DNA from: Leptolyngbya ohadii IS1
Lineage (GTDB): Bacteria; Cyanobacteriota; Cyanobacteriia; Elainellales; Elainellaceae
Reading direction: 5' to 3'
Assembly (NCBI RefSeq): GCF_002215035.1
Contig: NZ_NKFP01000001.1
Location: forward strand, 741,501-805,500
DNA length: 64,000 bases
In this document: one piece after another, positions 41,713 through 62,658 of the stretch
Position numbering within the stretch: position 1 is the stretch's first letter
Layout: each line of letters starts with the position of its first letter
Translations under genes and position numbers: made by a program
Notes under the pieces: model-generated
What the model was told of the DNA's origin: nothing
Database searches by the model: none
The model's input: the letters and a program-made list of their open reading frames with translations, nothing else

Positions 41713-43130
41713 AGCAATTCTCAGTATGGCGATTCAACTGGTATTGGGCGGAATGTCTAGCTCTAGCCCTTCGAGCATGAAGGTGAGCAGATGATCCCAA
41801 CTGTCGAAATACATGTAACGGGTTAACGCCCGCAAGTCATCAAAAAAGGTCTTACGTGTCGGCAAGTGAGATCGCAGCAGCTTGTACTTCTGGTCGAGCA
41901 ACTCCAACAACGTGTGGAATAGCAGGGACAGGATATTCAGGGTCGCAAGCAGTGAGGAGAGGTGCTGTTTCCCGTGCCCGAAATTGTGTTCCAGATTGTA
42001 GCCCTTAGTCTTAAGCGTGTTGTTATTCTCGTTTTCGACCTTCCAACGGGTACGCCCTGCCAGAACGATCTGGGCTACGTTTTCATTGCTCAGAGAGTGA
42101 TTGGTGGCAAACGAATTCTGATACGTCACCTTGCCGTCAGGACGACTGACTGTGACCTCACACCAGTTAACCAACAAAGCATCCTCGCTATCTCTTAGAG
42201 GCACTGAGTTGAGATAGCGGTAGGTATAGGTCTCCTCAACTTTCCCGGTCCACCGCTTGGTCGTGACGGTTGGCAGAGCAATGCCTGCAAGATGCTCATA
42301 GAGGGTGGTGTGGGATTCGGGACGACACACCAGGATAAAGTTGAACTGCTGGTCTAAAAGCTGCTGGCATAAGGGCTGGCGGCAATAAAGGTCGTCCCCT
42401 AGAACAGTGACGTTCAAGCCACTCCAGCGTTGCCCCTGCTGCGCCAACCAGCGTTTCGCGGCGGCATTCTCACAGTCCTGCTTGTCATGTCCATCCTGCG
42501 GCACGATGAACTCAGGAACCAAGGGGATCACGTGGCTCTGTCCCGGACAGACGATGACCGGCGTGATAACGCTATGGAAGTAGTGAGTTTCTCCCGACTT
42601 CAGCGTGCGCTTTGAACAGTTAGCGCAGTGAATTTGGCTTGAACTGAAGTATTCGGTGCCATCCAAGGCAATCAACAGAGTATCCGCAGTAGAGCGGAAG
42701 TCCGCTAACTGCCCCTGCTGCTCTAACCCCTGCAAGATTTCCTCAAACACCGGAAACACGTGCTCAGGTGCTACCGAATCTAACAAGTCCCGGATTTGGT
42801 TGTCGCTGGGAATCTGATGGACACCAAACAGGCTTTGAGCATTGCTTTTGCCTTTGCTGCCCTCCATCATCCGCTGATATGCCAGAAATGAAGGGGTCTG
42901 GGTGAAAAACACGCTAAACGCGCTTAAAGCTGCATCTTCCATTCCATAGCGAGTATTCTTGCCAGTCCGTTTGTCCGGTAGCGAGGACAGTCGCTGGCGA
43001 AAAGAACCGACTATTATGTCAAACAACCCCCGTTCTTTCAACGGTTCTGGCTCTCTTGGCTCTCTCAGATGTCCTCACAATACAGGCATTTCCATGACTT
43101 GAACAGCTTTTCGCCAAAATGAGAATTGCT
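41713..43130 (-). mobile_element. Insertion sequence with 11-bp target duplication
   Basis: The ends are AGCAATTCTCA at 41713 and its inverse TGAGAATTGCT ending at 43130, with further similarity (TGGCGA). The flanks repeat GCCTACTGTCC directly (41702-41712 and 43131-43141). The element is 1418 bp with one transposase. The long target duplication suggests an IS4-like or ISNCY-type element. Confidence 0.88.
41734..43041 (-). CDS. DDE transposase (ISNCY/IS4-like)
   Basis: The 435-residue protein begins MKERGLFDIIVGSFRQRLSS and has LIALDGTEYFSS (first Asp), VTVLGDDLYCRQPLC (second Asp region), a zinc-like CANCSKRTLKSG, and a WKVENENNNTLKTKGYNLEH segment with the catalytic Glu. This set of motifs is typical of transposases often listed as ISNCY in cyanobacteria. 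The frame is uninterrupted. Confidence 0.82.
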   Translation of the reverse strand: MKERGLFDIIVGSFRQRLSSLPDKRTGKNTRYGMEDAALSAFSVFFTQTPSFLAYQRMMEGSKGKSNAQSLFGVHQIPSDNQIRDLLDSVAPEHVFPVFEEILQGLEQQGQLADFRSTADTLLIALDGTEYFSSSQIHCANCSKRTLKSGETHYFHSVITPVIVCPGQSHVIPLVPEFIVPQDGHDKQDCENAAAKRWLAQQGQRWSGLNVTVLGDDLYCRQPLCQQLLDQQFNFILVCRPESHTTLYEHLAGIALPTVTTKRWTGKVEETYTYRYLNSVPLRDSEDALLVNWCEVTVSRPDGKVTYQNSFATNHSLSNENVAQIVLAGRTRWKVENENNNTLKTKGYNLEHNFGHGKQHLSSLLATLNILSLLFHTLLELLDQKYKLLRSHLPTRKTFFDDLRALTRYMYFDSWDHLLTFMLEGLELDIPPNTS

Positions 43131-43481: not shown

Positions 43482-46433
43482 TTGAAAAAACAACGGCTAC
43501 AAGCTGCTTTCACTGCAACAATGGTCGTTCCATTCGTGGTGCAGTTAGTTGTTGCTGTCAGCTTAACAGGATGGTTATCTCTTCAGACAGGGCAGCGTGC
43601 TGTTAATCAAGTTGCCACCCAACTGCGCAACGAAACGTCTAATCGGATTCGCGATCGCCTCGATGGCTATTTGCAAGCTCCCCATCGCATCAATCAGTCT
43701 CATGCAGAAGCGATTCGTTTAGGACATATCGATCCAAATAATATTCCTCGCTTGGAGGATCAGTTTTGGAGAGCCATTCAACTCTACACCACAGTGAGTT
43801 CGATTGGGTTTGGTAGTGCTAATGGCAGCTATGTAGCCAGCGATCGCCGGGGAACGCTCATCCGCAGGGGGTATAAAGATGGGCGCTTTCCTGAGACAGC
43901 TCTACGCATGTATGACGCGGATGCGAACGGCAAACCTACTCGCCTGGGATACACCGGTAGACCCAGCTACGACCCCCGTAAACGCCCCTGGTATCAATTA
44001 GGGCAATCCTCCCCGAACGGGCGGTGGACGGATATCTTCACCTACTCTGCCCAACCCATCTACGTTATCTCAGCAGTTCGGGCGGTGTCCGACCCATCAG
44101 GGCAGTTTCGGGGAGTTCTCGTTACCGATCTCATCCTGTCAGACATCAGCCAGTTTCTCCAAACCCTGGACATCGGTCAAACCGGAGAAGCGTTCATCAT
44201 TGAACGATCGGGACAATTAATTGCTGACTCCAGCACGAACCAACCCTTTCGGGTTCAGAATGGCAAAGCTGAGCGACTTCCCGCTACCGCCAGTTCCGAT
44301 CCCCTAATTCAGAATGCTGCCCAATTTCTGAACCGCCAATTTAGCGATCTGAACGGAATTCAAGAGGTTCAACAGCTTGATTTCTCTATTCATGGAGAAC
44401 GACAATTTGTCCAGGTCTTGCCCTATACCGACGATCGCGGGTTGGACTGGTTAATTGTGGTCGTCATTCCCGAAGCAGATTTCATGCAGCAGATCCACGA
44501 CAATGTTCGCACGACGGTGTGGCTTTGTCTGGCAGCTTTAGGAACTGCGATCGCCATTGGATTACTCACCTCCCGCAAGCTGGTACGCCCCATTGCCAGA
44601 CTCGCCGCTGCCGCTACCCTTGCAGCCAATGGGAAATGGGACAGAAACCTCTCTCTGGAACGAGAGGATGAATTGGGCGTATTAGCAGATGCCTTTAACC
44701 GGATGGCGGGGCAATTGCGCGAATCTCTCAACGCTCTGGAAGAACGAGAAGCCAAACTGACAGAAGCCCAGCGCGTCGCTCATGTCGGAAATTGGGAATA
44801 TACCCCAGACACGCAAATGGCAAGCTGGTCAGAAGAGATGTTCCGTATTTATGGGCTAGAACCACAGCCCAGCCCCCCGCCTTCAAACGAGTGGATTCAC
44901 ATGGTTCATCCAGAGGATCAGTCCTTTGTGCAGCAAACCGTTGCATCCAGTATTGAGAATAACGAAGCGTTTGAAATTGACTTTCGTATTATTCAGCCTG
45001 ATGGAACCCTGCGCGTTGTCAACACCAAAGGACAGCCTCGCCAAAACGAGCAGGGGCAGGTTGCTCAGCTCTTCGGCACCATTCTAGACATTACCGAGCG
45101 CAAACACGCCGAAACCGCGCTGCGAGAAAGCGAAGAACGCGCTCGCCATCTCCTGCAACAGGAACAATTAGCACGGGAAGAAGCAGAACGCGTCAATCGA
45201 GTAAAGGACGAGTTTCTCGCCATTCTTTCCCATGAACTGCGATCGCCCCTCAATCCCATTCTGGGATGGGCAAGACTATTGCAAACTCGTCAATTTGATG
45301 CCAAGAAAACCTCTGAAGCGTTAGCGATTATTGAGCGTAACGCCCAGTTACAAACTCAGTTAATTGACGATCTGTTAGATGTCGCCCGAATTCTTCGAGG
45401 TAAGCTGAGTCTCAAAGCCGCTCCTGTTGATCTCACCGTTGTCATTGAAGCGGCAATCGACACCGTAAATACGGCTGCGGCTGCCAAATCCATTCAAATT
45501 GATTCCAGCCTCCCCCCGATTGGACAGGTTTTTGGAGATGCAACTCGTCTCCAGCAAATTGTATGGAACCTGCTGTCGAATGCCATCAAGTTCACTCCCC
45601 ATGGTGGGCAGGTCAAGGTCGAGCTGACCAGGATAGAGTACAGCCAGGAAGAATGGAAAAGCGAAAGACTGCATGAGTGGCTTAGCAATTCCCCATCCTC
45701 TGCCTCTGATCCTCCAAGCTTCTGTGCCCAAGTGACTGTCACCGATACCGGCAAAGGCATCAATCCTGAGTTCCTGCCCCACATCTTTGAATCGTTTCGC
45801 CAGGAAGATGCCTCCACCACACGTCACTATGGGGGGCTAGGGTTAGGGCTGGCGATCGTGCGTCATCTGGTAGAAGCGCATGGCGGCAGCATTGCAGCAG
45901 AGAGTCCAGGTGAAGGGTTAGGGGCTACGTTCATCGTAAAACTGCCGCTCCTTAACGTTTCTCCACCGCCGCCTTCCCTCCCCACCTTGATGGATGATAC
46001 CGATCTCACCGGGATTCGAGTCCTGGTAGTAGACGATGAAAAAGATGCCCGCGAACTGCTCACCGTTCTACTGACCCAATGTGGAGCGGAGGTATTTGCT
46101 GTAACCTCGGCTGCTGAAGTCCTCACGACCCTAACTACTGTTCAACCCGACGTGCTCATTAGTGACATCGGAATGCCCAATGTAGATGGCTACGCCCTAC
46201 TACAGCAGGTGCGATCGCTCCCTCCTGAAAGCGGTGGACAAATTCCTGCGATCGCCCTGACCGCTTACGCTGGAGAGATTGATCAGCAACGGGCGCTGCA
46301 AGTGGGCTTTCAACAACACATCACCAAGCCCATCCATTCCAACCATCTCACTCAAGCGATCGCAACCCTTGCTCACACCAGTCGCATCATCCCATCCTCC
46401 AGCGGGACTGGCGATCTTCATCTGACCCGATGA
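43482..46433 (+). CDS. Hybrid sensor histidine kinase / response regulator
   Basis: The 983-residue product has a membrane segment (about 12-35), a periplasmic dCache sensor (about 45-330), a second membrane segment (about 346-366), HAMP, PAS (about 440-545), HisKA with FLAILSHELRSPLNPILGW, HATPase_c (NLLSNAIKFTPHG; GLGLGLAIVRHLV) and a C-terminal receiver (VVDDEKDARELL; phospho-Asp in LISDIGMPNVDG; Lys in HITKPI). The dCache part suggests sensing of an extracellular amino-acid-like ligand. The start is TTG; no ATG lies nearby before the first membrane segment except an internal Met at residue 14. No separate response regulator gene is adjacent. Confidence 0.93.
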   Translation: MKKQRLQAAFTATMVVPFVVQLVVAVSLTGWLSLQTGQRAVNQVATQLRNETSNRIRDRLDGYLQAPHRINQSHAEAIRLGHIDPNNIPRLEDQFWRAIQLYTTVSSIGFGSANGSYVASDRRGTLIRRGYKDGRFPETALRMYDADANGKPTRLGYTGRPSYDPRKRPWYQLGQSSPNGRWTDIFTYSAQPIYVISAVRAVSDPSGQFRGVLVTDLILSDISQFLQTLDIGQTGEAFIIERSGQLIADSSTNQPFRVQNGKAERLPATASSDPLIQNAAQFLNRQFSDLNGIQEVQQLDFSIHGERQFVQVLPYTDDRGLDWLIVVVIPEADFMQQIHDNVRTTVWLCLAALGTAIAIGLLTSRKLVRPIARLAAAATLAANGKWDRNLSLEREDELGVLADAFNRMAGQLRESLNALEEREAKLTEAQRVAHVGNWEYTPDTQMASWSEEMFRIYGLEPQPSPPPSNEWIHMVHPEDQSFVQQTVASSIENNEAFEIDFRIIQPDGTLRVVNTKGQPRQNEQGQVAQLFGTILDITERKHAETALRESEERARHLLQQEQLAREEAERVNRVKDEFLAILSHELRSPLNPILGWARLLQTRQFDAKKTSEALAIIERNAQLQTQLIDDLLDVARILRGKLSLKAAPVDLTVVIEAAIDTVNTAAAAKSIQIDSSLPPIGQVFGDATRLQQIVWNLLSNAIKFTPHGGQVKVELTRIEYSQEEWKSERLHEWLSNSPSSASDPPSFCAQVTVTDTGKGINPEFLPHIFESFRQEDASTTRHYGGLGLGLAIVRHLVEAHGGSIAAESPGEGLGATFIVKLPLLNVSPPPPSLPTLMDDTDLTGIRVLVVDDEKDARELLTVLLTQCGAEVFAVTSAAEVLTTLTTVQPDVLISDIGMPNVDGYALLQQVRSLPPESGGQIPAIALTAYAGEIDQQRALQVGFQQHITKPIHSNHLTQAIATLAHTSRIIPSSSGTGDLHLTR

Positions 46434-54200: not shown

Positions 54201-56582
54201 ATGAGCAATATCCAAAACGGCTCTTATGAATATCAGGTTGGAGGTAGCTTAAAAACAGATGCGCCGAGCTATGTCGAACGTCAGGCTGACCGTGACCTGT
54301 ATGAGGTGCTATTGAGAGGAGAGCTATGCTATGTATTTAGTGCGCGGCAAATGGGGAAGTCGAGTTTGCGGCTGCGAACCAAGCGGCAGCTAGAAGAGAT
54401 TGGCATGAGCTGCGCCTCGATCGACATGACCCGAATTGGCAGCAGAAATATTACGCCAGAGCAGTGGTATGTGGGGATTGCAGTGGATTTGCTGCGGGGG
54501 CTTGACTTGCTGGGCGATGTGGATTTTATGCCCTGGTGGAATGCAAGACAGCATCTCTCGTTTATTCAGCGATTCAGCGAGTTTCTAGAGACGATTGTGC
54601 TGCCCCGGACGAGCGGCAATCTGTACATTTTTGTCGATGAGGTAGATAGTGTCCTGAGCCTCAATTTTGCAGTAGACGATTTTTTTGTGCTGATTCGCTA
54701 CTGCTACAACCAGCGAGCCGAAAATCCGCTTTATAATCGGCTGAACTGGGTGCTGTTTGGGGTGGCAACGCCGTCCGATCTAATTCGCGATCGATCCAGA
54801 ACGCCCCTCAACATCGGGCGATCGATTACTCTCACTGAATTTAGTCTGACCGAAGCGCAGCCTTTGGCGATCGGGCTAGAGGGCAAAGTCAGCAATCCGC
54901 AGGCGGCGCTCAAGGAAATCCTGGCATGGACGGGCGGACAACCGTTTCTGACGCAAAAGCTTTGCCGAATTGTAGCAGAAGATCGGGCAAGCATTGGGTC
55001 AGAGCTGAGGCAGTTGAGTCAGGACGTAGACCTGCAAAGTAGAGATTGCAGCCTGGACTACAAACTGCCGATCGTCAATCAACACCTAATCGATTTGTAC
55101 TATCAGCTTCCCGTTCAGGCGATCGAGAAGTTTGTGCGATCGTGCATTATCGATCACTGGGAAGCGCAGGATGACCCAGAACACCTAAAGACCATCCGCG
55201 ATCGGCTACTGCATCATCCGCGATCAGCTGTGCTGTTAGAGCTTTATCTAACGGTATTGCAGCGAGGCGTTCGCTGTGATGATACGTCAGAACAACTGGA
55301 TTTGCTGCTGAGTGGACTGGTAGTACGGCATCAGGGACAGCTTCAAGTGTTTAACCGCATCTATGGAGAAGTGTTCAGTTCCGCCTGGGTCGAAAAACAG
55401 CTTGCGGTCTGTCCCTACGGCGTCGCGCTGAATGCCTGGATTGCTTCTGACAGACACAACGAAGCCTGTCTGCTGCAAGGTCGTGCTCTTGATGAGGCGC
55501 AGCACTGGGCAGCCACCCATTCTCTAGGTGAATTGGACTATCAGTTTTTGATTGCCAGTCAGGCACTAGAGCGTCGTCAGTTTCGGGAATCTCTGGCAGC
55601 AGGACAGGATACTGCTACACGCCATCCTGCCCAGGGACAGGACGAAGGCAATCCATCACCGTTAGACAATCAAATTCTCCGGAACCTCCAGCAGACCGAG
55701 GCAATCCTCAGCCGACAAAATGCAATCTTAAAGGCACAGCAGGAAGCGGCGATCGACGGTATTCTATTAGTGGATGAACATCGGCGCGTGGTGTCCCACA
55801 ACCAGCGATTTCGTCAACTGTGGAGGATTCCGGCAGAACTAATCGATGCTAACAGCAGTGAGGTATTGCTCTCTTTTGTCGTCGCGCAGATGGCTGACCC
55901 AAAAGCGTTTCTGGCGCGGGTGGAATATCTCTATCAGCATCCTACGGAAATTAGCCGGGACGAAATTTGGTTTCGCGACGGGCGCGTGTTCGATCGTTAC
56001 TCCAGTCCGGTGCGATCGGAAAGCGGTACGGACTACGGTCGTATCTGGTTCTTTCGGGACATTACCGAGGCAAAGCGCGAGGAAACCGTTCGTAAAGAAG
56101 CAGAACAACGGCTAGAGACTGCACTCCGCGTCAAGACCGAATTTATTGCCAATATGAGCCACGAACTGCGAACGCCGCTCAACGCAATTCAAGGTTTTTC
56201 CCAGCGACTCCTCCGCGATCCTGCCCTCACTGCCAGCCAGCAGGAAAGCCTGACCATTATTCACGACAGCGCTAGACATCTTTCCGCTCTGGTCAATCAC
56301 ATTCTCGACCAAGCCCGCCGCGAAGAACAGGCGACGCTCCAGGGCACTGCCTGCGACTTGCCTGAACAGCTCACCGCAGAAATGCTGACTCTGATGCCGC
56401 TAGAATGGGTGCGCCAATTGCATCAGGCAGCTCTCTATACCGACGAGCAGCAAATCTTGACGCTGCTAGAGCAAATTCCTCGATCGCATGGGTCGATTGC
56501 CTCAGCTCTCACCGACATCGTGAATAATTTTCGCTGCGACAGGATCCTCAATCTAACGCAGCCATTGCTGCAAGGAGGGTAG
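54201..56582 (+). CDS. AAA_35 ATPase fused to PAS and HisKA, no HATPase domain
   Basis: The 793-residue product has AAA_35 (Walker A SARQMGKSSL; Walker B LYIFVDEVDSVL; WTGGQPFLTQKLC) followed by a linker and a PAS domain (from about 520; IDGILLVDEHRRVVSHNQRF). HisKA with NMSHELRTPLNAIQGF comes next. Instead of HATPase_c it continues with a short C-terminal helical region (LPLEWVRQLHQAALYTDEQQ) that in cyanobacterial hybrid kinases normally follows the receiver. The protein can bind ATP through AAA_35 but should not autophosphorylate on its own. It may be a natural deletion product or a phosphoacceptor scaffold. Confidence 0.8.
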   Translation: MSNIQNGSYEYQVGGSLKTDAPSYVERQADRDLYEVLLRGELCYVFSARQMGKSSLRLRTKRQLEEIGMSCASIDMTRIGSRNITPEQWYVGIAVDLLRGLDLLGDVDFMPWWNARQHLSFIQRFSEFLETIVLPRTSGNLYIFVDEVDSVLSLNFAVDDFFVLIRYCYNQRAENPLYNRLNWVLFGVATPSDLIRDRSRTPLNIGRSITLTEFSLTEAQPLAIGLEGKVSNPQAALKEILAWTGGQPFLTQKLCRIVAEDRASIGSELRQLSQDVDLQSRDCSLDYKLPIVNQHLIDLYYQLPVQAIEKFVRSCIIDHWEAQDDPEHLKTIRDRLLHHPRSAVLLELYLTVLQRGVRCDDTSEQLDLLLSGLVVRHQGQLQVFNRIYGEVFSSAWVEKQLAVCPYGVALNAWIASDRHNEACLLQGRALDEAQHWAATHSLGELDYQFLIASQALERRQFRESLAAGQDTATRHPAQGQDEGNPSPLDNQILRNLQQTEAILSRQNAILKAQQEAAIDGILLVDEHRRVVSHNQRFRQLWRIPAELIDANSSEVLLSFVVAQMADPKAFLARVEYLYQHPTEISRDEIWFRDGRVFDRYSSPVRSESGTDYGRIWFFRDITEAKREETVRKEAEQRLETALRVKTEFIANMSHELRTPLNAIQGFSQRLLRDPALTASQQESLTIIHDSARHLSALVNHILDQARREEQATLQGTACDLPEQLTAEMLTLMPLEWVRQLHQAALYTDEQQILTLLEQIPRSHGSIASALTDIVNNFRCDRILNLTQPLLQGG

Positions 56583-56737: not shown

Positions 56738-57184
56738 CTATGGCTTCTGCCGAAGCCGCTTCTTCATATGATAAATAACTGTACCAATGGGTCTATCTTC
56801 TAGCACACCATAAACTTCATAACCGAGTCTTTCATAAAAGCCTTTCGCTTCAACTGTCTTCAAAAATGAGACAACTGCGCCATTTTCAAAACCAAAAGCC
56901 TCTGCTTGCTTTACCAAGCTTGAACCGAGTCCCTTACCCCTTTCAGAATCTTCTACCCAAAGCGTATCTATCTCCAACCCGTTCCAGTAACAATTAGCAA
57001 GAACTCCTCCGACAAGGCATCCTGAACGGTTAATAGCTTTCACCATGAATATTTTGTCTTCAGACTGCGGTGGTAAGTTAGGGATTTTTTGCCTCATGAA
57101 GGCTTCAAAACGGCTTGTAAGTTCGCTCAACTCTTCTTGCAAAGGAGGCTCTGATAATTCAAATTTCACCGTTGAAATAACCAT
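56738..57184 (-). CDS. GNAT family N-acetyltransferase
   Basis: The 148-residue product has LVGGVLANCYWNGLEIDTLWVEDSERGKGLGSSLV (acetyl-CoA-binding R/Q-x-x-G-x-G/A) and GFYERLGYEVYGVL typical of GNAT enzymes. Substrate unknown. The gene is convergent to the AAA_35-HisKA gene and stands alone. Confidence 0.9.
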   Translation of the reverse strand: MVISTVKFELSEPPLQEELSELTSRFEAFMRQKIPNLPPQSEDKIFMVKAINRSGCLVGGVLANCYWNGLEIDTLWVEDSERGKGLGSSLVKQAEAFGFENGAVVSFLKTVEAKGFYERLGYEVYGVLEDRPIGTVIYHMKKRLRQKP

Positions 57185-57685: not shown

Positions 57686-58357
57686 TTACCAACTCATCAT
57701 CAGCGGCAATCCAGGTCGAAAATCTACCTGCTGTCCCTGCACTTCTCCATCAAACCCAAGCTCTACACAATACTCTGCTCCTCCGCGTAGCTTTATCTGC
57801 CTCGTATTGATCACTGCTTGAAGTTCAGGTGACAAATTATTTGCAGCGGGACTAACTAGTTCTACACGAGTAATTTCGCGTAAACCAACACCATGATCTA
57901 GAGGCTGCGACTTCTCAACAGGATATTGATCTGGACGTTGCCCAAATGGAGTTTGGAACAGCCACGGCTCAGTCAATACATCGCTATTCTTTCCTACTTT
58001 AATACTCAGTGTTTTAGGCAAATAAGGGGGGTAATATGCCCAACTGGGGAATGCAACTGCGTTATCAAAACCTACGGCTGGACGTAGACAGACCCCAAAC
58101 GGACAAACCCCATTATTTCGATTCTCCCATCGTTCCCAAAGTTGAGTAGAACGAATTAGCTCAGACTTTGCCTCTTCTGGATCATGAACCCACAAGAACT
58201 CCAGCATTGCATTATGGAAAAAGAAACGGCGATTGGTTGTTCCCTGACCATGATGGGTATTAGAGGTTCCCTCCACCAAACCGAATGAGACAAGACGCTC
58301 AGCCTCATAAGCACCAATGTCAGTCCAAATGAAAAGATGGTCGAATTCAAATGTCAT
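57686..58357 (-). CDS. VOC/glyoxalase-like protein
   Basis: The 223-residue product begins MTFEFDHLFIWTDIGAYEA and has NRRFFFHNAMLEFLWVHDPEEA, an ALSIKVG-like second strand region and VELVSPAANNLSPELQAV, consistent with a glyoxalase-like domain of the VOC superfamily. The substrate is unknown. It lies alone next to decayed mobile DNA. Confidence 0.72.
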   Translation of the reverse strand: MTFEFDHLFIWTDIGAYEAERLVSFGLVEGTSNTHHGQGTTNRRFFFHNAMLEFLWVHDPEEAKSELIRSTQLWERWENRNNGVCPFGVCLRPAVGFDNAVAFPSWAYYPPYLPKTLSIKVGKNSDVLTEPWLFQTPFGQRPDQYPVEKSQPLDHGVGLREITRVELVSPAANNLSPELQAVINTRQIKLRGGAEYCVELGFDGEVQGQQVDFRPGLPLMMSW

Positions 58358-58841: not shown

Positions 58842-59030
58842 TTAGACGATACTGGTACACCTTTCATTTCTGTTTTGTAAGCGGCGATCGAAGAATTGAG
58901 TCAGTTCTTCCCAGGCATCTGCGGCGGCTGACGGATTGTAATCCGATCGCTTGTTGCAAAAGAAACCATGTCCTGCATCGGGGTAAACCTTTACCCTGTA
59001 GTCTTTGTCTAAATTGGCAAACTTATACTT
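58842..59030 (-). pseudogene. Dienelactone hydrolase-family 3' fragment
   Basis: The frame starts at the end of the HlyD gene and reads DYRVKVYPDAGHGFFCNKRS, then SAAADAWEELTQFFDRRLQ to a stop at 58842. This matches the end of dienelactone hydrolases with the catalytic His in AGHGF. The nucleophile half is missing. The fragment meets the hlyD stop within two bases, which suggests a deletion junction next to the secretion operon. Confidence 0.78.
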
Positions 59031-60387
59031 ATAAAGTGGAAATCAGGCGGGCTTTTCGCAGAATCGATCGCAAAACTGTATCCTGACTCGAAACAATGTC
59101 AATCCTGCCCTCCATGCCAATCTGGATGGGACAGTGACGATCGCCCTGGCTCAACACAGCGCGTTCCGGTTCCAGGATAACTTCGTAATAGGGCATTCTC
59201 TCGGACGGTTCCGCAGCAGTTTGACCAGAAGCGGGAGTCATAACATCCGGCGACAGGGTTTTGACCGTACCTGATAGGACGCCATAGTCAGGATAGGGGC
59301 AGGCTGAAATACGAAACTGGGCTGGTTGCCCAACCTTGATTTTGCTGATTTCCTGCGGGGGGATAAACGCTTTAATCGTGAGCTGGGTTTCGTGCGGGAC
59401 AATCTGAGCGATCTCTTCGCCCGGCTGCACCGTTTGTCCAGTATTTCGCAAATTGAGCTTGGCGATCGTGCCTTTTATTGGAGCGGTGATCGTGGTTTTG
59501 CCTAAATCGTGCTGTACCTGATGCAGTTCCCGCTGATCTAATTCAAGCTGGTTTTGTAGCTGAATCTGCTGCTGAATCAGCGACTCGCGTTCCTGGGTGA
59601 GTGAGGCAAACGTCGCCTCAGCAGTTGCCCGTTCCTGGGCAATTCGTTCGGCTGCGATCGCAACGGCTGCATGACTTGGATCAAGAGCGGTTCTGGCGCG
59701 TTGAAGCTTGGCTCGTGCGGCGACGACTTCCTGCGCCTGCTGCTGGGCAGCGAGTTCGGCTTCTGCAAGGCGATCGGACTCTAACGCTCCCTCGGCAGCA
59801 ATCGGACGGTATCGTGCCAGTCTTACCTGGGCAGTATCGAGAGCGGTCTGGGCTGCTCGCAGGGTCGCTTGCGCTTCGGCAACTTCAGTTTGGGAAATGA
59901 CCTGCTGATTCTGGTAGTCCCGCAGCCGCTGGCTCCACTCTGCCTGGGCAGCCGCGACGACTCGATCGCCCCGATTCTGTTCGGCGGCAATGCGGCTCTC
60001 GATCGAGCGAATTTGCGCCTGCATCTGCAAAATCTGAAGCTGAAGCTGCCGGACGCCGTTTTGAAGCTGCGATCGCTTGGTTTGTAGCGGCGAATCGTCA
60101 ATTTGGGCAATGATATCTCCTCGTCGCACGGTTTGGTTTGGCGTCACCCTCACCTGCATTACCGTTCCCCCTGCTGCTGCCTGCACAATTCGCAATTCAC
60201 CGACAGGACGAACCACAGCAGGTGCTTTCACCGTAATTCGGTATTGGGCGATCGAAGCAATGCCCACCGCAGCAGCGATCGTTCCCACAACAAACAGCCC
60301 ACCAAACTTAATCCAGCTATTGAGCGGCGGCAGAAAATCTTGCGTCTGCACCTCAGGCAGCAACACTTCGCGGGAGGAGTTGAACAT
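59029..60387 (-). CDS. HlyD-family periplasmic adaptor of a type I-like exporter
   Basis: From the ATG at 60387 (GGAG 6 bases before) the product has 452 residues: a membrane anchor (FVVGTIAAAVGIASIAQY), a barrel-sandwich half (GGTVMQVRVTPNQTVRRGDIIAQID), a long coiled coil (about 85-270) and the second lipoyl half (APIKGTIAKLNLRNTGQTVQPGEEIA). It should link the inner-membrane C39 ABC exporter to an outer-membrane TolC, which is not in the window. It is the last gene of the operon with the exporter and two precursor genes. Confidence 0.92.
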   Translation of the reverse strand: MFNSSREVLLPEVQTQDFLPPLNSWIKFGGLFVVGTIAAAVGIASIAQYRITVKAPAVVRPVGELRIVQAAAGGTVMQVRVTPNQTVRRGDIIAQIDDSPLQTKRSQLQNGVRQLQLQILQMQAQIRSIESRIAAEQNRGDRVVAAAQAEWSQRLRDYQNQQVISQTEVAEAQATLRAAQTALDTAQVRLARYRPIAAEGALESDRLAEAELAAQQQAQEVVAARAKLQRARTALDPSHAAVAIAAERIAQERATAEATFASLTQERESLIQQQIQLQNQLELDQRELHQVQHDLGKTTITAPIKGTIAKLNLRNTGQTVQPGEEIAQIVPHETQLTIKAFIPPQEISKIKVGQPAQFRISACPYPDYGVLSGTVKTLSPDVMTPASGQTAAEPSERMPYYEVILEPERAVLSQGDRHCPIQIGMEGRIDIVSSQDTVLRSILRKARLISTL

Positions 60388-60495
60388 AATAGTCTCCAAT
60401 CAGGCTCTTTTTAATCAGGCTGTGCAGCAAATAACCAAAATTAGCGGCTGCTACTCAACCTTGAAATCGCATGTTTCCAAAATTTTCATCGCTAA

Positions 60496-62658
60496 TTACC
60501 GCAGGGCAAAAGAAACAGGATTAAAAAACTTCAGGTGTTCTCCGGGCTGAACGCGCAGTTCCTGCGGAGTCCCTTCGATCTGAACCTGACCGCGATCGAG
60601 CATTACAATCCAGTCTGCCCGCTCGATTACATTTGGACGATGGCTAATCAGAATCGTGGTTTTGCCCTGACGGTGGCGCAGCAGGCGATCGAGCACTTCG
60701 GTTTCGCTGGCGGGGTCGAGTGCGCCGGTTGATTCATCCAGGATCAGAATAGGCGGATCGTTGAGAATCGCACGGGCGATCGCAAGCCGCTGCCGCTGTC
60801 CACCGGAGAGATTTGCGCCAAATTCGCCCAACACCGTCTGATACTTGTCGGGAAGCTGGCTGATGAATTCATCTGCACCTACAATTTCGCACGCCTCCGT
60901 AATACGATCGAATGAAATATGCGGATCGCTAAAGCGGAAATTTTCCACGATCGATCGGCTCCAGAAGTGCGACTCTTGCGGCACAAGGGCGATCTGCTGC
61001 CGCAGACAGTCGAGCAACAAATCTGACTGGTTGTAATGTCCATAGCGAATATTGCCACTTTGCAGCGCGTACAGTCCAGCCAGCAGTTTAACCAATGTGC
61101 TTTTGCCGCAGCCGGATTTGCCGATCAGGACTGTGACTTGTCCGCCCGGAATTCTCAACGAAAAGTTATCTAATAGATCGGTTCGTCCGGCATGGTGAAA
61201 TTGCAGACGCGAGCAAACGATGTCGGTATGAGGCGGTAGAGATACCCAAGGTTTCTTAAAATCGTTGGCATCTTCGGGTGTGGCGTCGATCACTTCGCTG
61301 AGCCGTTGGAGAACCACTTGCGCGGTGATGAACTCGTCAACTAGACCGATCGCCGCCGCCAGAAATCCAAAGAAGTTGCCGCTCAAGCCGTTGTATGCCA
61401 TCAGTTGACCGATGCTGAGCGTGTGGTTAATGACCAAATAGCTGCCCAGCCACAGCAGCAGAACGCTGGTACAGGTTGAAAGAATCGTCGTCACTGTGCC
61501 GCTGTAAAGTTCCAGCTTCATCATGCCCCAACCGAGGTTTGCCAATCTGCCAAAGTTCGTTTGATATTCCTGCCAGGCTTGTGGCGTTGCTTGACTGGTT
61601 TTAAGCACCTGTACGCCGCGAAACGTTTCGACTAAAAAGCCTTGATTTTCCGTGCCCTGCACAATTAAACTGCGCGTTTTTTGCCGCAAAGCAGGCAGAA
61701 ACAAAAAGCTGATTCCTGTCATCACTGCAAAGGCGGCGGTCGAAGCTGCTGTCAGTGTGGGACTGTAGAACAGCATAAAGCCCAGCGAGATGATCGCAAT
61801 GAAAAATTGACTCGGCAAGCCCAAGACAATCTGCGAAACCAGGGAGTGAATCGCGTCTACGTCTGAGATCCGGCTGACGACTTCACCGCTGCGCCGTCCT
61901 TCAAAGTAGCTCAGTGGCAAATGCAGCAGCTTGCGCCCATATTCTAAAATTAAGCCTAACTGTAGCCGTTGCCCAAAATAGCCTATCAGATGCGCCTGAA
62001 TGATGCCGATGACGCTTTGCACAATCGCCATCACAATGACGCCGATCGCTACGATCGTTAGCAGTTGCGTATCGCCCCGAACCAAGACATCATCGGTCAA
62101 CACCTGCATCATTAAGGGCGACGCCAAGGCGAGCAGCCCGATCACAACGTTGAGCGCGATTGCCTGCGCTAGAATCCAACGGTATGGTAGAACACGTTGG
62201 AAGAAACGCCCCAATCCGGAGAGGCGATCGTCCATCTGCTCCGCAAAGCGGCTTTCATCCGGTACAAGCAGCAGCATGATCCCGTTTTCCCAACCTGCCG
62301 CTAATTCTTGACGAGTCAGATAGCGCAGACCGACGCCCGGATCGGCAACAATGTACTTCTTACCGCGCTGACCGTATAGGACAACCCAGTGATAGCCCTT
62401 CCAGTGAATCACGGCTGGAAGCGGCACTTCGCCCAGTCGATCGAGCAGTTGGGCATTGGCTTTGACATGGCGAGCGTTAAATCCTAGATTTTCCGCACCT
62501 CGGTTGAGTCCGAGCAAGCTAGTTCCTCGTGTGCCTGTGCCGACTGCTTCTCTTGCGTGAGCGATCGAAATGGTGCGTCCATAGTATTTAGCGACGGTGG
62601 CAAGGCAGGCTGCTCCGCAATCTTCTTCGCTATGCTGCTGCACGATCGGATATTTCAT
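60496..62658 (-). CDS. C39 peptidase-domain ABC transporter (double-glycine exporter)
   Basis: The 720-residue product begins with a C39 peptidase: QHSEEDCGAACLATVAKYYG (catalytic Cys), VIHWKGYHWVVLYG (His) and YIVADPGVG (Asp). A six-helix ABC membrane domain follows (about 160-440), then the nucleotide-binding domain: LIGKSGCGKSTLVKLLAG (Walker A), LSGGQRQRLAIARAI (signature), ILILDESTGALD (Walker B). Such transporters cut leader peptides after Gly-Gly and export the cargo. Two Gly-Gly precursors lie directly upstream. All key residues are present. Confidence 0.95.
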   Translation of the reverse strand: MKYPIVQQHSEEDCGAACLATVAKYYGRTISIAHAREAVGTGTRGTSLLGLNRGAENLGFNARHVKANAQLLDRLGEVPLPAVIHWKGYHWVVLYGQRGKKYIVADPGVGLRYLTRQELAAGWENGIMLLLVPDESRFAEQMDDRLSGLGRFFQRVLPYRWILAQAIALNVVIGLLALASPLMMQVLTDDVLVRGDTQLLTIVAIGVIVMAIVQSVIGIIQAHLIGYFGQRLQLGLILEYGRKLLHLPLSYFEGRRSGEVVSRISDVDAIHSLVSQIVLGLPSQFFIAIISLGFMLFYSPTLTAASTAAFAVMTGISFLFLPALRQKTRSLIVQGTENQGFLVETFRGVQVLKTSQATPQAWQEYQTNFGRLANLGWGMMKLELYSGTVTTILSTCTSVLLLWLGSYLVINHTLSIGQLMAYNGLSGNFFGFLAAAIGLVDEFITAQVVLQRLSEVIDATPEDANDFKKPWVSLPPHTDIVCSRLQFHHAGRTDLLDNFSLRIPGGQVTVLIGKSGCGKSTLVKLLAGLYALQSGNIRYGHYNQSDLLLDCLRQQIALVPQESHFWSRSIVENFRFSDPHISFDRITEACEIVGADEFISQLPDKYQTVLGEFGANLSGGQRQRLAIARAILNDPPILILDESTGALDPASETEVLDRLLRHRQGKTTILISHRPNVIERADWIVMLDRGQVQIEGTPQELRVQPGEHLKFFNPVSFALR

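Follow-up and report, generated by a model that had tools for sequence, protein, structure and literature searches.

A gene of the cyanobacterium Leptolyngbya ohadii IS1, here called gene 2, encodes a STAND-type ATPase fused, with a PAS domain in between, to a HisKA domain that keeps its phosphoacceptor histidine and lacks a HATPase catalytic domain; the protein closes with a small helical tail. The gene lies in the 64,000-nucleotide stretch of DNA analysed here (the window), and its architecture is an old, conserved design, not a broken gene. Judging from sequence and gene order, and with a probability of about 0.5, gene 2 would encode the DHp part of a split and probably bifunctional kinase, with its STAND ATPase as the steering element; a hybrid kinase of the same operon (gene 4) would charge it, and it would serve the operon's receiver (REC) protein (gene 5).

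The sequence-only reading that drew attention to gene 2 had described a frame open over 793 codons, a HisKA domain with its phospho-acceptor His, a complete AAA_35 ATPase and no catalytic ATPase domain, and most of this description holds. The gene runs from ATG to stop in a single frame, and H654 is intact. Pfam finds neither a HATPase domain at E ≤ 0.1 nor a Ser/Thr kinase domain, and a hidden HATPase between HisKA and tail is impossible because the gap measures only about 18 residues. A complete ATPase agrees with the predicted fold, a full STAND-type domain over residues 9-402, although the Pfam match (residues 15-265, 99.5 bits) covers only model positions 4-250 of 331. This fold (mean pLDDT 81.3) features a confident ATPase with winged helix and a weak PAS domain; the DHp forms a pair of long helices (622-671, 678-716), and the short helices of the tail are again predicted with confidence. 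The best solved matches to residues 9-402 are 2qen (Z 20.9 over 312 residues) and 2fna (Z 20.2), followed by Orc2, plant NLR cores and CED-4. The features of the gene and its operon are collected in Table 1.

Table 1. Features of gene 2 and its operon in L. ohadii IS1. Plain positions count from the first base of the window; G000:C1 denotes a contig of the same genome.
Feature	Position	Strand	Basis
Gene 1: N-terminal HTH-like region (named by eye) + AAA_35 ATPase, 492 aa	52372..53850	+	Pfam AAA_35, 467 bits
Gene 2: AAA_35(STAND)-PAS-HisKA-tail, 793 aa, without HATPase	54201..56582	+	
STAND-type AAA+ ATPase + winged helix, residues 9-402	54225..55406	+	Predicted fold, alignment
PAS domain, residues 519-628	55755..56084	+	Pfam PAS_7, 30.4 bits
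HisKA/DHp domain, residues 645-709	56133..56327	+	Pfam HisKA, 71.5 bits; predicted fold
Codon of phosphoacceptor His654, SHELRTPLNA box	56160..56162	+	Sequence, alignment
Linker, residues 710-727	56328..56381	+	DHp-CA coupling motif [KR][IL]E[ASTV] missing at DHp end
C-terminal tail, residues 728-793, small helical domain common to the operon's hybrid kinase	56382..56579	+	
Gene 3: solute-binding lipoprotein	G000:C1:812905-814566	opposite to gene 2	Pfam
Gene 4: hybrid kinase, HisKA + HATPase + REC + tail	G000:C1:808478-812716	opposite to gene 2	Pfam
Gene 5: REC-PAS	G000:C1:807556-808425	opposite to gene 2	Pfam

Could such a protein be a deletion product, as the sequence-only reading offered as one possibility? 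The same architecture, sought elsewhere as that reading had suggested, recurs in seven further complete members, in G018 (81% identity; L050, from Phormidium tenue FACHB-886, is this same gene), G012 (80%), G014, G023, G035, G010 and G019, and in a G028 copy that is interrupted by a frame change and the end of its contig, with gene 1 adjoining. By alignment and Pfam, all eight complete members, the window's included, pass from AAA_35 through HisKA to the tail without a HATPase; HATPase box motifs occur in none of them, and gene 2 itself holds no remnant of a catalytic domain after its DHp. Invariant across the eight are Walker A (G52 K53 S54), Walker B (D146 E147) and the H-box residues S653, H654, E655, R657, T658, P659 and L660. 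Besides the interrupted G028 copy, only the window, G018 and G012 have the PAS domain, five of the eight complete members being without it, so that the PAS is the variable part of the design and the HATPase-less HisKA-tail the constant one.

In a tree of 50 HisKAs, built on few columns and with a rough bootstrap, those of the gene 2 family cluster together, separate from other kinases (support 91/95). Between the window, G018 and G012 copies, dN/dS is 0.09-0.11 for the gene overall, 0.08-0.31 for the HisKA and 0.08-0.12 for the tail (the two pairs where it was computable); dS of the window copy against the others is near saturation, and G018-G012 is the safer pair. These ratios indicate that gene 2 is under purifying selection. 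A recent private deletion or a pseudogene is refuted by the identical HisKA-tail junction in every complete member, and this selection also speaks against it; no complete close relative with HATPase and receiver at that point was found, nothing beyond the architecture itself and the interrupted G028 copy speaks for it, and its probability is close to nil. An AAA_35-HisKA-HATPase-REC-tail intermediate was sought at 26 other AAA_35 loci, which were cut at their flanks; 24 gave an AAA_35 frame (L142 and L148 yielded none), and no H-box was present in any of these.

Of the order's 36 genomes, the nine with gene 2 are also the nine with gene 1, the constant upstream partner, whose orthologues in the eight other genomes have 62-79% identity. 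At ≥60%, gene 3 is found in those nine genomes plus G027. All seven other genomes whose neighbourhoods were read (G018, G012, G014, G023, G035, G010 and G019) share one order on one strand: HTH-AAA_35, gene 2, solute-binding lipoprotein, hybrid kinase, REC-PAS. The contig ends inside gene 4 in G035 and before gene 5 in G010, where a frame break precedes the tail of gene 4; gene 5 was read in G018, G012, G014, G023 and G019. Pfam gave the domain names for the window's gene 1, for the G000 copies of genes 3-5 and for gene 4 in G018 and G019; for the remainder they come from position, motif and sequence. Gene 4 features Cache-like, HAMP, PAS, HisKA, HATPase and receiver domains with the tail at its C-terminal end, and a GAF domain in two of the three scanned copies. 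Its HATPase is recognized by Pfam in all three scanned copies and by motif in seven of seven (G000, G018, G012, G014, G023, G010, G019), and the same seven have a full HisKA H-box.

In the window's own genome, genes 3-5 are inverted and lie outside the window, starting 9.5 kb past gene 2, which is now adjoined by a GNAT gene (56738-57184) and a glyoxalase-like gene (57686-58357). In G012, the GNAT and glyoxalase-like genes are located beyond gene 5 on the operon's strand, which is what a single inversion would produce. In G000, the stop-bounded frame of gene 3 begins in a remnant of an IS6/IS240-like transposase, close to the inverted segment's far end. An inversion mediated by this IS was considered and is not supported: near gene 2, no copy matching the remnant was found, only matches of 15-16 bases. 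G027 has genes 3-5, gene 2 was not found there, and a loss looks the same as an assembly effect because the contig turns unrelated-looking near gene 3. Elsewhere in the window, a gene for a HlyD-type membrane-fusion protein adjoins one for a C39-peptidase ABC exporter (59029-62658, minus strand), a pair typical of peptide export, and a DDE_Tnp_1-like transposase at 41734-43041 (minus strand) scores 21.6 bits in Pfam, below the cut-off of 23.

Is the loss of the catalytic domain peculiar to this family? A HisKA+tail profile, searched at E ≤ 1e-28 in 388 genomes of the class, gave 20 matches. Of these, eight are of the AAA_35 type and all belong to the gene 2 family, 11 carry a Cache-type sensor together with HAMP, and the last is a PAS-HisKA-tail protein of 374 aa. 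Domains of the Cache-type family were assigned by Pfam in L191 and L196 (L196 without a HAMP match) and by sequence in the others; L197 is cut by its contig. A second profile returned 19 full-span matches of at least 177 bits, the G019 copy falling outside the candidates it scored, and the next matches listed reach at most 120 bits, mainly over the HisKA. At 9 of the 12 further HATPase-less loci (the exceptions are L193, L194 and L196), the next gene on the same strand encodes a REC-HisKA-HATPase protein, as named by Pfam for the partners of L191 and L195 only. The AAA_35 and Cache families lie apart in the HisKA tree, where their separation is weakly resolved, suggesting that the HATPase was lost separately in each. 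A possible intermediate in such a loss, going by its domains, is L180 (G000:C1:473.5-476.2 kb), a REC-HisKA-HATPase-tail protein whose HATPase scores only 57 bits and has neither the G1 nor the G2 motif. It is followed by a REC-HisKA frame, open to the end of the locus, of the same kind as the partners of the Cache-type HATPase-less proteins.

What the carriers share is the tail. An alignment of 27 tails has an invariant W, A and L, and the predicted structure of the isolated tail is a small bundle of helices (mean pLDDT 79.8). Against PDB sequences it gave three matches of E 0.43 or worse, and none of the solved folds matched significantly (Foldseek E 3 or worse); VIA-align gave Z 3.7 against HPt and 4.3 against FliS, values that bundles reach by chance. 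A conserved phosphorylatable His, which would mark the tail as an HPt domain, is not supported, as the His of its QLHQAA stretch is kept in only 18 of the 27 tails, the others having Y (6), N (2) or K (1). The sequence-only reading held that this tail normally follows a receiver. It does so in gene 4; in L180 it follows a degenerate HATPase, so the placement is no rule.

In a tree that includes only 4 of 11 further tail loci of the same genome (L237-L247), the gene 2 and gene 4 tails cluster with moderate support (87/77), away from the Cache-type tails. A profile of gene 2 proteins alone finds the gene 4 tail as the best non-self tail of the genome (84.7 bits, next 66.0), as does the window protein used as query (63.3, next 54); the ranking by the general tail profile (100.5 vs 84.5 bits) was left unused, since that profile contains gene 4 tails.

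Tails are also coupled to receivers by gene order. In the window's genome, 12 of 15 tails have a same-strand REC of one subfamily at most 507 nt behind them (REC set: the 18 best of 84 listed RECs), compared with a mean of 0.02 and a maximum of 2 in 20000 trials of random placement. Conversely, 12 of the 13 best matches to the REC subfamily (≥57% identity) sit right behind a tail; gene 5, behind gene 4, is a member. The tails with no such REC behind them are those of gene 2, C1:1436837 and C7:165339; in intact operons, genes 3 and 4 stand between the gene 2 tail and the REC. Two tails, at G000:C1:1436837-1437031 and C7:162246-162458, are in frames with an internal TAG, possibly broken kinases or frame changes.

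All of 30 further genomes chosen from the matches of the second profile have tails. At 29 of the tail loci there (L259-L287), a profile search places the start of a high-scoring REC gene directly behind the tail in 16; one has its REC on the opposite strand and 12 have none within 1.5 kb. L259 and L260 were already in the profiles as Cache-type members, and without them the count is 15/27; an earlier regular expression for downstream receivers, which gave 7/26 with three of the 29 loci not located, was replaced by this search. The coupling of tail and REC is real, not universal.

Which parts of the HisKA domain survived the loss of the HATPase? The H-box residues S, H, E, R, T, P and L, and with them the HExxT motif, are kept in all 20 HATPase-less HisKA-tail proteins across two architectures, many of the 20 being close relatives. 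The motif [KR][IL]E[ASTV] at the end of the DHp, read here as a marker of linkage to a catalytic domain, occurs in none of the 20 vs 28 of 30 comparison kinases, namely all seven gene 4 copies and 21 of 23 other HisKAs of the window's genome; given the close relatives among the 20, a Fisher p-value for this contrast overstates how independent the sequences are. These 23 came from 29 loci, the repeats L158, L159, L174 and L182 having been dropped; L160 and L170, missed by the pattern, both have the motif and would bring the count to 30/32. In one of the 23, L181 (G000:C6:556492 region), masked bases cut off the frame after HisKA and a HATPase follows in the next one, so that a break looks the same as masking. 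With the H-box invariant and the linker motif gone, the phosphoacceptor face is therefore constrained while catalytic coupling in cis is lost.

For the kinase CrdS, PMC3510030 describes the acidic residue after the His as needed for kinase and dispensable for phosphatase activity, and the T/N residue as needed for phosphatase and dispensable for kinase activity, with similar mutants reported in three other kinases. Because the roles are split in this way and both E and T are kept, the His is apparently still phosphorylated by a catalytic domain. By analogy, their retention points to a bifunctional DHp that would be phosphorylated by a catalytic domain, necessarily in trans; E655 may instead be retained for structural reasons.

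But where is the missing catalytic half? The kinase at 43482, proposed by the sequence-only reading for trans-phosphorylation, appears from its sequence to be a poor partner candidate: its receiver extends to residue 960 of 983, so that a tail would not fit behind it, and searching for tails gave no match at this site; the related neighbourhoods that were read contain no H-box frame of 180 aa or more besides genes 2 and 4. The linked candidate is the hybrid kinase gene 4, which comes after gene 2 in all seven other operons read and thus genetically links a catalytic domain to it; this same-operon kinase probably supplies the missing half. Gene 4 keeps its own phosphoacceptor, unlike CheA4, and this excludes an obligate split of the CheA3/CheA4 type. 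The other possibility offered by the sequence-only reading, a phosphoacceptor that relies on another kinase, is supported by the H-box kept in 20 of 20 and by the hybrid kinase linked in seven operons; its trans-phosphorylation step is one we infer.

In the split kinase that we propose, input to gene 2 would come through its N-terminal STAND ATPase, plus the PAS domain where present, and gene 4 would use its catalytic domain to phosphorylate His654 in trans. Gene 4 would have its own input from the Cache/HAMP/PAS region and probably also from the solute-binding lipoprotein (gene 3); gene 1 presumably has a role as well. The tail common to genes 2 and 4 would dock the cognate receiver, the REC-PAS protein of gene 5 and/or the receiver of gene 4, and the gene 2 DHp would either pass its phosphoryl group to that receiver or strip the receiver's phosphoryl group by means of HExxT. 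Several observations pull against this proposal. Gene 4 has a complete DHp with its His and does not need gene 2 for kinase function, the gene 2 tail is one of three, out of 15, without a REC of the subfamily directly behind it, and in other genomes 12 of the 29 tail loci lack such a REC within 1.5 kb. Nor is gene 2 sister to gene 4 in the HisKA tree, and as the most gene 2-like HisKA of the genome that of gene 4 (82.8 bits) is outscored by five others. A structural reason for keeping E655 would also weaken the case.

Gene 2 could instead be a dedicated phosphatase that is never phosphorylated, its ATPase-gated DHp only taking phosphate off the gene 5 or the gene 4 receiver. Such activity requires no CA domain: the isolated DHp of HK853 is described as a phosphatase that depends critically on T264 in this motif (PMC5727384), and HExxT is kept in 20 of 20. 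The invariance of E655 in the same 20 proteins, whose CrdS counterpart is described as needed for kinase and not for phosphatase activity (PMC3510030), makes this unlikely. The same residue would go unexplained in a phosphorelay, in which gene 2 would act like Spo0B, ChpT or PhyT and carry the phosphoryl group from the gene 4 receiver via His654 to the gene 5 receiver. The operon does supply the parts of four steps, with an HK-REC, a bare DHp and a separate REC, and degenerate kinases can work as phosphotransferases (PMC5898713). In that account, though, Spo0B, ChpT and PhyT are degenerated kinases, while gene 2 has no trace of a catalytic domain, and we hold a relay to be unlikely. DHp domains dimerise, and the predicted long helical hairpin would suit a HisKA that merely dimerises the STAND ATPase or forms mixed dimers with gene 4, its His being a relic. 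An H-box invariant in 20 of 20 proteins of two architectures, next to a decayed catalytic-domain linker, renders a mere scaffold highly improbable.

Finally, we would like to place gene 2 into the context of known systems. HATPase-less HisKA proteins and degenerate-kinase phosphotransferases are already known (PMC3591291, PMC5898713): PMC3591291 counts 1556 proteins without HATPase among 42417 HisKA proteins, 711 of which keep the motif, and proposes that they are split bifunctional kinases. Like CheA3/CheA4 of Rhodobacter sphaeroides, as described there, gene 2 has a phosphoacceptor without a catalytic domain, a HE/DxxN/T motif and a catalytic domain on another protein. It differs in being of the HisKA and not the CheA type, in a linked kinase that keeps its own DHp, in its STAND ATPase input, in the common C-terminal tail and in the conserved five-gene operon. 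Spo0B, ChpT and PhyT resemble it in that they are thought to be kinase-derived and to act without kinase activity (PMC5898713); in gene 2 the catalytic domain is absent, not degenerated, and a different helical domain follows the DHp. HstK/cbSTKIII are likewise cyanobacterial multidomain proteins with GAF or PAS and HisKA, described as Ser/Thr kinase + GAF + HisKA (PMC2176072), whereas gene 2 has neither a Ser/Thr kinase nor a HATPase. STAND ATPases such as 2qen, 2fna, CED-4 and plant NLR cores share the AAA+ core and winged helix of residues 9-402; a HATPase-less HisKA and tail replaces their effector or repeat sensor in gene 2. Among the matches listed in the open-licence literature, we found no description of a STAND/AAA_35 ATPase fused to a HATPase-less HisKA, nor of the operon, the tail or its coupling to receivers.

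HATPase-less HisKA proteins are easily dismissed as fragments, and gene 2 is a natural, conserved, operon-encoded example. A broader proposal, which we put forward tentatively, is that the tail could be an undescribed receiver-docking domain found across cyanobacteria, whose carriers would have dropped their own catalytic domain at least twice because docking allows them to act on a receiver that a neighbouring kinase has charged; the STAND ATPase of this operon would then act as a sensor, either writing to a two-component pathway or erasing its signal, within a split bifunctional kinase that has the ingredients for switch-like output. With an identifiable partner kinase, a receiver and a second HATPase-less family, split HisKA kinases become directly testable. 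Gene 2 ties STAND ATPases to phosphotransfer signalling, and the gene-order coupling of its tail to one REC subfamily may help to predict kinase-receiver pairs in cyanobacteria.
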